From: Actinomycetota bacterium
Lineage (GTDB): Bacteria; Actinomycetota; Acidimicrobiia; Acidimicrobiales; Ilumatobacteraceae
Direction: 5' to 3'
NCBI GenBank assembly: GCA_027729785.1
Contig: JAQCDY010000004.1
Location: 1-43,783, forward strand
Length of the DNA: 43,783 nt
The position numbers and the translations under genes were made by a program. Under the pieces are notes generated by a model. The model saw nothing but the letters and a program-made list of their open reading frames with translations, had not been told where the DNA came from and did no database searches. How positions within the stretch are numbered: the stretch's first letter is position 1; each line of letters begins with the position of its first letter. Shown piece by piece: positions 19,103-22,918 of this stretch.

Positions 19103-20062
19103 TCAGACTACGCCACAAACCTCTACCGACATTCCTTCTGCAGCGGCGAAAACTTCAAATCCACGATTCTTAGCCACGCCGGCGAGCCGTTGTGCAATCA
19201 CATCAAGCGCGTCATCGGTGCGCGACGGGTCGTGATGAAACAGCGCCAGTCGTTTGGCTGATGTTGTCTCGGCAACCCACATTGCAAATTCAAGAGTTGA
19301 GTGGCCCCAATCAGACTTAAGTTCAAATTCTGCTGGGGTGTATTGCGAATCATGAATCAGCAAATCGGTGCCCTGACAAATTTGACGAGCACCAGTTGTG
19401 AGTGCAAAACCCGTGACTGGTTGTTGGTGATCAGAAAGATAAGTCACGGTTGAATTTCTGGCAGTTACGCGATAACCGAGTGTCGGCCCCGTATGCGGCA
19501 CAAACCGACTCATCACCTTGGTGTTGCCGATCATGAAGTCATCATCGCCGATTTCGTGAAAATTGATGGTGGCTTTGAATTCATTTAAACTGATCGGGAA
19601 AATCGGCGGACAAATCTTTTTCAAGAAAATTTCGCGCAAACTTCTTCCGTCATCCTGTTTTGGCGCGTAAATATCCAGCACAGTTTCTTCGCTCAGCAAT
19701 GATCTGAAAAATGGCAAACCTTGAATGTGATCCCAATGCAAGTGGGTCAACAGACATGTGCCAACAAATGGTTCTGGCCGCAACTCGGTCTCGGTCTCAG
19801 ATTGCGAAGAGTTGATGTAGCGCAAGCCCGTGCCAAGATCAAAAATTATCGGAGCATCATTTGCTGACTTGATCGAAACACATGAAGTGTTTCCGCCGTA
19901 CCGATGCGTCTGCGGATCATGGCATGCAGTTGAACCACGCACGCCAAGAAACGTCACCGTTAAACCAGATTCCCCCACAGGTGAAACGGTATTGGTATCG
20001 CGATTCAGATGTAAAGACTCAATGGGGTGACCTTCGTCGCAGGCAACTAACTTTGAATTCAT
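19103..20062 (-). CDS. MBL-fold metallo-hydrolase
   Basis: VTFLGVRGSTACHDPQTHRYGGNTSCV, LLTHLHWDHIQGLPFF, HTGPTLGYR, LIHDSQYTPAEF, ALFHHDP. ATG at 20062, or alternative GTG at 19978. Confidence 0.88.
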   Translation of the reverse strand: MNSKLVACDEGHPIESLHLNRDTNTVSPVGESGLTVTFLGVRGSTACHDPQTHRYGGNTSCVSIKSANDAPIIFDLGTGLRYINSSQSETETELRPEPFVGTCLLTHLHWDHIQGLPFFRSLLSEETVLDIYAPKQDDGRSLREIFLKKICPPIFPISLNEFKATINFHEIGDDDFMIGNTKVMSRFVPHTGPTLGYRVTARNSTVTYLSDHQQPVTGFALTTGARQICQGTDLLIHDSQYTPAEFELKSDWGHSTLEFAMWVAETTSAKRLALFHHDPSRTDDALDVIAQRLAGVAKNRGFEVFAAAEGMSVEVCGVV

Positions 20063-20945
20063 GCCACAACCGAAAATCAAGATCGAATGCGTGTCGGCCA
20101 ACGGCACCGACTTCTCGTATCTCGAGTGTGGCACTGGCAAATTGGCGTTGTTGCTGCACGGCTTCCCCGACACAGCACAAACATGGCGTCACCTGATGCC
20201 TCAACTTGCCGCCGCTGGTTATCGCGCCGTCGCACCATTTATGCGTGGCTATGCCCCGAGCGCAGTGCCGTCTGATGGCTGTTATCAAACTGCGATGCTG
20301 GCCCGTGACGCCAACGCATTGCACGAAAAACTTGGTGGCGACGGTGATGCCGTGATTATCGGTCACGATTTTGGTGCGCTGAGTTGTTACGGTGCCGCGA
20401 TCGATGCACCAGCACGATGGCGCAAAGTTGTTGGCATGTCGGTGCCACCGACTGCTGCTCTCGGCATGGCGTTCGTACAAAATCTTGAACAAATCAAAAA
20501 AAGCTGGTACATGTTTTTCTTTCAACACGGTCTCGCTGATCTCGTAGTCGGCGCTAACAACCATGCGCTCATCAAAATGTTATGGCGCGAGTGGTCGCCT
20601 GGTTATGACGCCAGTGTCGATCTTGAATTCGTGCGCAAGTCGCTAGCCGACCCAAAAAATCTGCAAGCTGCACTCGGCTATTACCGAGCGACTCTTGGCG
20701 ACGGCTACCGCGACCCTCAACTAAGTGAATTACAAAAGCAGATGGGTGCCAGTGTGCCGACACAACCATTGCTGTATCTGCATGGTGCAGATTGCGGATG
20801 CGTCGGGGTCGATGTCTTTGAGTCAGCGAAAACTTTAGCGCCAGCCAATATCAAGTTTGAACTAATTGCAGCAGCTGGACACTTCTTGCAACTCGAACAG
20901 CCCGAAAAAGTTAACCGTCTGATTTGTGATTTCATTGCGAGTTAA
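20061..20945 (+). CDS. Alpha/beta hydrolase, epoxide hydrolase/haloalkane dehalogenase-like (Asp nucleophile)
   Basis: LLHGFPDTAQTWRHLMPQLAAAGYRAVAP, nucleophile elbow GHDFGA, C-terminal AAGHFLQLEQPEKV. Confidence 0.88.
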   Translation: MPQPKIKIECVSANGTDFSYLECGTGKLALLLHGFPDTAQTWRHLMPQLAAAGYRAVAPFMRGYAPSAVPSDGCYQTAMLARDANALHEKLGGDGDAVIIGHDFGALSCYGAAIDAPARWRKVVGMSVPPTAALGMAFVQNLEQIKKSWYMFFFQHGLADLVVGANNHALIKMLWREWSPGYDASVDLEFVRKSLADPKNLQAALGYYRATLGDGYRDPQLSELQKQMGASVPTQPLLYLHGADCGCVGVDVFESAKTLAPANIKFELIAAAGHFLQLEQPEKVNRLICDFIAS

Positions 20946-20948
20946 CTA

Positions 20949-22394
20949 GTGACGGTTACCAAAAATCCACTGCGCGACGGTTGGACAATAATTGTCAAAC
21001 GCGAATGCGCAACCTGCGTGATGGTCGTGCCCGTCATCGCCCGTCTCGTGCGCGAATTGCCGTCACTCAAGGTTTACACCCAAGATGATCCAACATTTCC
21101 AGATGGCGTCGTCTCGATCAGCGATGCTGATCTTTCCGCAAGTTGGCATGCCGACATCGACACGGTGCCGACACTAATTTTCCGCGCGAACGGCGTTGAA
21201 ACTGCGCGAACTGTCGGTTGGCTGCGCAGTGAGTGGCGCGAATTGACTGGCATCGCCGATCTCGGCGCAGAGTTGCCAGAGTTTCGACCAGGTTGCGGCT
21301 CAATGAGCGTCGATCCAGACGTGATTGACAAACTTCGCGTGCGATACGGTGGCGAAATTTTGCATGCCAGACAAATTGATATTGCTTCGGCAGAAGACGA
21401 GTTCGAGGCAATGTTCAGTCGCGGTTTCACCGACGGTCTGCCAGTCGTGCCGCCAACGCCCGAGCGTGTGATGCGCATGCTCAATGGCACTTCACGAGCG
21501 CCGCAAGAAGTCGTGGCAATTGCTCCCCCAGACTTGGTTGAACTAACTGTCGAAAAGATTGCAGTCAACGCAGTGATGGCAGGTTGCTTACCCGAATACT
21601 TGCCTTGGGTTATCGCAGCGATCGAAGCAATTTGCACCGATGAGTTCAATATGCACGGCGTGCTCGCAACCACGATGCCTGTCGGCCCTGTGATCGTGTG
21701 TAATGGCCCCGGCACACGCGCAATCGGCATGAACTCTGGTGTCAATGTTCTCGGTCAGGGAAATCGCACGAATCTCACAATCGGTCGTGCGGTGCAATTA
21801 ATTATTCGCAATGTCGGTGGCGGTCGCCCAGGCGAAGTTGACCGTGCCGCACATGGCCACCCCGGCAAGTTGAGTTTCTGTTTCGCCGAAGATGAGGCCA
21901 ATTCACCGTTCACTTCGCTAGCGGTTGCACGCGGGTTTGATGCTTCACAAAACACCGTCACGGTTTTCACTGGCGAAGGCCCACGCTGTGTTGTGGATCA
22001 ACTTGCGCGCGAACCCGAACAACTCGCGCAAACTCTTGCTGCGTGTTTGCGCACCGTTCATCATCCGAAGTTGCCGTTTGCATTTGATGCAATGTTGATT
22101 CTTGGGCCCGAGCATGCCCGAGTTTTCGCACAAGCCAAATGGGATCGTGAACGCGTATTACAAGAAATCAACGACCGTTTGCATCTGCCTGGCACCGAAA
22201 TCGTGCGCGGCGCGGGTGGCATGGCTGAAGGCGTACAAGAGGCATTCAAAGATGCGACCCTGCCAAAGTTTCGACCTGGCGGATTACTGCTTGTGCACGC
22301 AGGTGGTCCCGCAGGTCTGTTCAGCGCCATCGTCGGTGGCTGGGTCAACGGTTCCGTCGGCAGCGACCCAGTCACTAAGTTGGTAGCGACATGA
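20949..22394 (+). CDS. Thioredoxin-like N-terminal domain fused to a 'TDGLPVVPPT' domain; partner of the UGSC protein
   Basis: KRECATCVMVVPVIARL (CxxC), then FSRGFTDGLPVVPPTPERVMRML...VEKIAVNAVMAGCLPEYLPWV; stop overlaps the next ATG (ATGA). Confidence 0.72.
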   Translation: MTVTKNPLRDGWTIIVKRECATCVMVVPVIARLVRELPSLKVYTQDDPTFPDGVVSISDADLSASWHADIDTVPTLIFRANGVETARTVGWLRSEWRELTGIADLGAELPEFRPGCGSMSVDPDVIDKLRVRYGGEILHARQIDIASAEDEFEAMFSRGFTDGLPVVPPTPERVMRMLNGTSRAPQEVVAIAPPDLVELTVEKIAVNAVMAGCLPEYLPWVIAAIEAICTDEFNMHGVLATTMPVGPVIVCNGPGTRAIGMNSGVNVLGQGNRTNLTIGRAVQLIIRNVGGGRPGEVDRAAHGHPGKLSFCFAEDEANSPFTSLAVARGFDASQNTVTVFTGEGPRCVVDQLAREPEQLAQTLAACLRTVHHPKLPFAFDAMLILGPEHARVFAQAKWDRERVLQEINDRLHLPGTEIVRGAGGMAEGVQEAFKDATLPKFRPGGLLLVHAGGPAGLFSAIVGGWVNGSVGSDPVTKLVAT

Positions 22395-22918
22395 CGAATC
22401 GCGTGATTCTTGATCCGACCAGCGAAAAAAGAAACACCTCACGCGACTTGCTCGCCCGACCCAAGACGATTTCGGGCCAGACAATCGGCCTACTGGATAT
22501 TTCAAAAGCACGAGGCGATATTTTCTTGAATCAACTCGAGTCCCGACTGACAACTGCAGGCGCAAAAGTCTTGCGCTTTCGCAAGCCGACATTCACCAAA
22601 CCAGCACCAGTTGATTTGCGCCATGAAATTGCGACGAAATGCACGCTGGTTATCGAAGCCCTCGCTGATTGAGGCAGCTGTACGTCGTGCAGTGTGCACG
22701 ACATTGTTGATCTTGAAACTCGCGGTGTGCCCGCGATGTTCATCGCCTCAGATGTTTTTGTCCAAGCCGCCGAATCGCAAGCCAACGCACTCGGCTTTCC
22801 ATTAGTGCAACGCGTATTCGTGCCGCACCCGATTCAAGATCGCACCGACGATGAAATGCGTGCCATTGCTGACTCGGCTTACGTCTCGATCGTCGCTGCG
22901 ATCACAAAAACGAACTAG
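22391..22918 (+). CDS. UGSC-family selenoprotein; in-frame UGA at 22670-22672 read as selenocysteine (175 residues including Sec)
   Basis: ORFs 22391-22672 and 22694-22918 share one frame, separated only by UGA. Junction reads VIEALAD-U-GSCTSCSVHDIVDLETRGVPAMFIASDVF; hairpin follows the UGA. Confidence 0.9.
22684..22702 (+). promoter_or_regulatory. Candidate bacterial SECIS stem-loop downstream of the Sec UGA
   Basis: GTCGTGCA-GTG-TGCACGAC: perfect 8-bp stem with 3-nt loop (or 7 bp with AGUGU loop), apical loop 19 nt after the UGA. Confidence 0.8.

Follow-up and report, generated by a model that had tools for sequence, protein, structure and literature searches.

The region 22391-22918 of the window (the whole stretch of 43,783 nucleotides that was analysed) is a single gene of the UGSC selenoprotein family, made of two open reading frames joined across an internal TGA that is almost certainly read as selenocysteine (Sec). 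Judging from gene order and natural fusions, its product very probably works with the protein encoded by the overlapping gene 20949-22394. The elements of the selenoprotein gene are as follows.

22391-22918, forward strand: gene for a UGSC-family selenoprotein of 175 residues, with Sec as residue 94 and a TAG stop at 22916-22918
22670-22672, forward strand: putative selenocysteine codon TGA, residue 94 and the U of U-G-S-C; stop codon here in 135 copies, Cys in 2
22684-22702, forward strand: bacterial SECIS-type hairpin, stem 22684-22691/22695-22702 (GUCGUGCA/UGCACGAC), loop GUG 22692-22694

The initial annotation had proposed a UGSC selenoprotein split into two ORFs by an in-frame UGA. Translation confirms that the ORFs 22391-22672 and 22694-22918 form one frame of 175 codons (176 with the stop) whose sole interruption is TGA 22670-22672. 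This TGA is codon 94 and stands in the product context ...VIEALAD-U-GSCTSCSVHD..., the motif codons TGA-GGC-AGC-TGT at 22670-22681 giving Sec and then G-S-C. The glycine, serine and cysteine of the motif are invariant in 41 aligned UGSC members. The family assignment was borne out by searching the joined 175-residue protein against the UGSC models; the initial annotation had recommended a search against UGSC/CGSC homologues. Pfam UGSC PF24696 was matched at 5e-46 (157.4 bits, cut-off 25) by residues 6-172, corresponding to positions 2-171 of the 172 in the profile, and NCBIfam NF041046 (UGSC_fam) at 2.9e-48 (163.6 bits, cut-off 125). Both matches run unbroken through the TGA. Same-genus copies differ from the window at codon positions 1/2/3 by 95/67/613 substitutions before the TGA and by 55/48/357 after it, and the third-position excess downstream indicates that coding constraint extends past the TGA. 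The coding frame therefore continues through the TGA, as had been proposed. The claim that the gene is hidden was only partly right: standard gene calling splits such proteins and so hides selenium use in Actinomycetota, but since both Pfam and NCBIfam offer curated models of the family, the gene would not escape a Sec-aware pipeline. Alternatively, translation might truly end at the UGA after 93 residues and start anew at the in-frame GTG 22694 to make the second half as a protein of its own. Such an arrangement is highly improbable, since the split would halve both the predicted and the curated domain, two family members with a plain Cys codon read straight through, and GTG 22694, an internal codon that starts on the last base of the hairpin loop, overlaps the hairpin and encodes a conserved valine.

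The Sec site was compared across relatives. UGSC was found above cut-off in 58 of 100 related genomes, with exactly one internal TGA in each such copy. With the upstream partner gene as query, contigs from one genome per species yielded 80 loci, in records titled Actinomycetota, Chloroflexi, Acidobacteria, Proteobacteria, Myxococcota and others; at nearly all of them UGSC adjoins the partner gene and the TGA occupies the same codon. Over all examined loci with a visible motif (137 copies), a stop codon is present at the site in 135 and Cys in 2. Relatives with a sense codon other than Cys or Sec had been named beforehand as a finding that would speak against a selenoprotein, and no such residue occurs. 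In Geodermatophilus obscurus DSM 43162 and Candidatus Blastococcus massiliensis the Sec codon is TAG instead of TGA, and the tRNA-Sec of both species carries the anticodon CTA. ARAGORN mislabels these two tRNAs (loci L140 and L166) as tRNA-Pyl; Rfam scores them as tRNA-Sec. The CUA tRNA-Sec and the UAG-encoded UGSC proteins of Geodermatophilaceae have already been published (Mukai et al. 2016, cited in PMC5330540). That the TGA of the window is an error for TGC or TGT appears very unlikely, because independent assemblies of many phyla carry TGA (or TAG) there. Two public MAGs recovered in the comparison are titled Bifidobacterium breve and Ferrithrix thermotolerans (L119, L120). Their partner genes are 94% and 90% identical to that of the window, as in genus-mates, and the titles look wrong.

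The RNA following the TGA folds into a stem of 8 bp capped by the loop GUG, 12-30 nt past the UGA. As expected of a bSECIS element, this hairpin comes shortly after the UGA and has a G in its apical loop, and it may be the SelB site. Taken alone, the window hairpin is not more stable than shuffled sequences (minimum energy z = -0.95). Its wobble-position pair 22687/22699 (codons +5 and +9) is preserved in 104 of 104 distinct sequences as G-C, G-U or A-U; A is never opposite C and always with T (Fisher p = 1.6e-4, shared ancestry ignored). Codons +4, +6, +7, +8 and +10 after the TGA are almost frozen across phyla, shared ancestry again being ignored: Ser is AGT and Val is GTG in 87/87 copies, and Thr ACG, Cys TGC and Asp GAC are each used in 86/87. 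Codon choice is much freer at conserved residues of the gene away from the hairpin. On the other side of the Sec codon, the preceding Asp codon (22667-22669) is GAT in 76/87 copies, GAC being as common or commoner at other conserved Asp sites; the preference may reflect an influence of codon context on how the UGA is read.

A check of the host for selA, selB, selD and tRNA-Sec had been suggested in the initial annotation and gave a divided result. The assembly, 86% complete at 1.44 Mb in 139 contigs, contains an intact adjacent selA-selB pair on contig C131, with 399 and 288 bits, above cut-off, whereas neither tRNA-Sec nor selD was detected in it. The Rfam tRNA-Sec matches that it yielded were rejected as ordinary tRNAs. 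Assembly gaps are the likely explanation because most genus-mates have these genes: among 28 genus-mates, tRNA-Sec was detected above cut-off in 15, selD in 21 and selA in 19. The Sec trait, scored as tRNA-Sec or selA present, is associated with UGSC in the 100 genomes (62 with both, 17 with the Sec trait only, 1 with UGSC only, 20 with neither; Fisher p = 5e-10, shared ancestry ignored). The sole UGSC-only genome is 84% complete and has selD. A fragmented MAG whose assembly contains neither tRNA-Sec nor selD would suit a pseudogene, or a TGA created by sequencing or assembly error. This explanation, already refuted for the family, is scarcely credible given the same-codon TGA in independent genomes of many phyla, the selection on both flanks and the TAG with its matching tRNA-Sec in Geodermatophilaceae. 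Overall, the selenoprotein interpretation is supported by the conserved SECIS-like hairpin, the conservation of the site and the selA-selB pair.

Two genes upstream of the selenoprotein gene are relevant to its function.

20949-22394, forward strand: partner gene, 481 residues, thioredoxin-like N-terminal domain and large C-terminal domain; linked to UGSC by adjacency and fusion
20061-20945, forward strand: alpha/beta-hydrolase gene, directly upstream of the partner gene (3-bp gap) and so placed in many relatives

The stop codon of the partner gene overlaps the ATG of the UGSC gene by 4 bp (ATGA), and a 4-bp gene overlap is a usual sign of coupled translation. The alpha/beta-hydrolase gene is a possible first gene of the operon, its membership being uncertain. 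The N-terminal domain of the partner (residues about 11-100) contains a CxxC motif, CATC, and its matches to thioredoxins are weak but consistent (3e-5 to PDB thioredoxins; NCBIfam thioredoxin in 30/36 members). The C-terminal domain (residues about 105-480, about 375 residues) has no Pfam match. The partner adjoins UGSC at most loci in many phyla. Among the 100 genomes, 56 have both genes, 7 UGSC only, 5 the partner only and 32 neither (Fisher p = 3e-14, shared ancestry ignored). The exceptions lie at contig ends in 5 of the 7 UGSC-only genomes and in at least 2 of the 5 partner-only genomes. In five genus-mates seemingly without the partner (G004, G011, G018, G023, G024), UGSC lies no more than about 300 bases from the end of its contig, and in G016, where the partner is present, the start of UGSC is cut off by the contig end. 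The partner is found a few kb from UGSC in G019, G008 and G005 and on another contig in G012. In G019 and G012 (L095, L114) a run of other genes, one of them glycosyltransferase-like, occupies the place of the partner just upstream of UGSC; in G019 the partner sits beyond this run.

Divergent UGSC paralogues (25-35% identity) are accompanied by partner copies of their own, which usually lack the thioredoxin-like part; the pair thus does not depend on that domain. Six proteins of even greater divergence unite the UGSC domain and the large domain of the partner in one polypeptide, with Sec in five (L238, L250-L253) and Cys in the sixth (L245). Natural fusion, together with adjacency across phyla, argues that UGSC and the partner act together. 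A fusion called UGSC/Unknown_1, in which the UGSC domain is joined to an unknown domain, was noted in 2008 (PMC2398784), and the six fused proteins probably represent the same arrangement. No paper in the openly licensed literature searched names the UGSC partner. Up to ten UGSC paralogues per genome were observed in G071 and G099 (L238, L239, L243, L245, L247-L249, L242, L100), and SDR, acyl-CoA and other catabolic-looking genes were seen by eye near some of them. A link to glycine-betaine transport, considered for a neighbour in L236, was dropped: the shared cluster is a mixture of generic ABC ATPases, among which only that of L236 looked like a glycine-betaine type.

The AlphaFold2 model of UGSC (pLDDT 94, pTM 0.87) shows strand-helix alternation throughout, and Sec94 is placed where strand 86-92 gives way to helix 95-110. 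Compared with the PDB, the model mostly resembles generic flavodoxin-like or Rossmann-like proteins with TM-scores of about 0.5 or below, MttC, lumazine synthase and flavodoxin among them, and a PDB sequence search with UGSC gave chance matches only. The predicted fold is thus flavodoxin-like alpha/beta/alpha. A thioredoxin-like fold had been guessed for UGSC in PMC2398784, and the alternating order of strands and helices argues against it, as do the generic flavodoxin- and Rossmann-like matches: in the model, a prediction and not a solved structure, the UxxC motif does not lie in a thioredoxin fold. The partner was modelled with pLDDT 90 and its thioredoxin-like domain is visible. Comparison of the predicted large domain with the PDB revealed no convincing structural relative. 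A fumarase-like fold was set aside for this domain, as TM-scores were about 0.2-0.3 and, among its conserved cysteines, Cys213 alone is kept in the fused forms.

From these observations a two-component redox selenoenzyme composed of UGSC and its partner can be proposed. On strong comparative support, SelB, aided by the hairpin 22684-22702, would place selenocysteine at UGA 22670, and the large domain of the partner may help to bind the substrate. Sec94 would attack the substrate and be released through a Se-S bond with Cys97, which the thioredoxin-like CxxC domain of the partner or free thioredoxin would then reduce. The chemical steps of attack by Sec94, resolution by Cys97 and re-reduction by CxxC or thioredoxin are put forward with somewhat less than even confidence. 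UGSC might instead be a general thiol-redox or peroxide-reducing selenoprotein, similar to the many selenoproteins of thioredoxin fold, with the partner merely an electron donor. The UxxC motif, the thioredoxin-like CxxC domain of the partner and the fold guessed in PMC2398784 are consistent with such a role. It is nevertheless unlikely, considering that the AlphaFold2 model alternates beta and alpha elements in an order other than that of thioredoxin, that the 50 PDB matches listed for it include no thioredoxin, and that the many paralogues of a genome, each paired with a large partner domain of its own, suit separate substrates better than a house-keeping reductant. The conserved overlapping partner and the natural fusions make the function of UGSC directly testable as that of one enzyme.

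A distant relationship was also considered with GrdB and PrdB, the selenoproteins of glycine/sarcosine/betaine and D-proline reductases. UGSC and its partner would then be cousins of these proteins, with the Sec reductively cleaving a C-N or similar bond in a small substrate that the partner domain helps to bind. UGSC weakly matches NCBIfam GrdF (0.008) and GrdB (0.013) over the Sec site. Profile comparison with the GrdB-like and PrdB-like selenoproteins of related genomes puts Sec on Sec every time, the probability reaching 56% against short PrdB-like proteins, and both groups have the pattern strand-UxxC-helix-ExxG-strand with a later P-[IL] motif. On the other hand, UGSC gives no match to Pfam GRDB PF07355, which is also absent from the families listed for the 41 aligned UGSC proteins, and the hhalign probabilities range from 4 to 56%, the coding of Sec as Cys inflating the match. 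We consider the cousin reading, with its chemistry, possible but doubtful; the remote link to the GrdB/PrdB Sec domain itself is suggestive only, a lead drawn from sequence profiles and not a membership. The short PrdB-like selenoproteins of related genomes (L203-L223) mostly have U-P-x-C, their ORF ends exactly at the Sec TGA, and several occur per genome in some relatives. Full-length GrdB-like proteins with U-G-T-G were also observed (L199-L201). A broader proposal, which we hold to be speculative and on balance improbable, is that UGSC and its partner, each supplying one half, make up a single widespread and undescribed family of aerobic selenoenzymes that is remotely kin to the anaerobic glycine and proline reductases. 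In some Actinomycetota this family would have expanded to several copies per genome, each specific for a substrate, often with a fused thioredoxin-like re-reduction domain.

The UGSC-containing selenoprotein family was described by Zhang and Gladyshev in 2008 (PMC2398784), according to whom it is among the commonest selenoproteins of aquatic microbes and the most used in non-marine samples. The protein of the window shares with this mostly Sec-containing family both models and the U-G-S-C motif and is an ordinary further member of it. To the 2008 account the present analysis adds the partner gene and a predicted fold; both the partner and the non-thioredoxin fold appear to be undescribed in the openly licensed papers searched. 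Unlike the fused UGSC/Unknown_1 arrangement of PMC2398784, the window encodes two separate, overlapping genes. The UAG-decoding UGSC selenoproteins of Geodermatophilaceae are the same protein with Sec in the same place; their codon is TAG and is served by a CUA tRNA-Sec, whereas UGSC of the window uses TGA. Finally, UGSC resembles GrdB and PrdB (PF07355) by a UxxC Sec site at a strand end and a similar local pattern, in contrast to which it falls below every cut-off for these proteins and has no GRDB N-terminal region.
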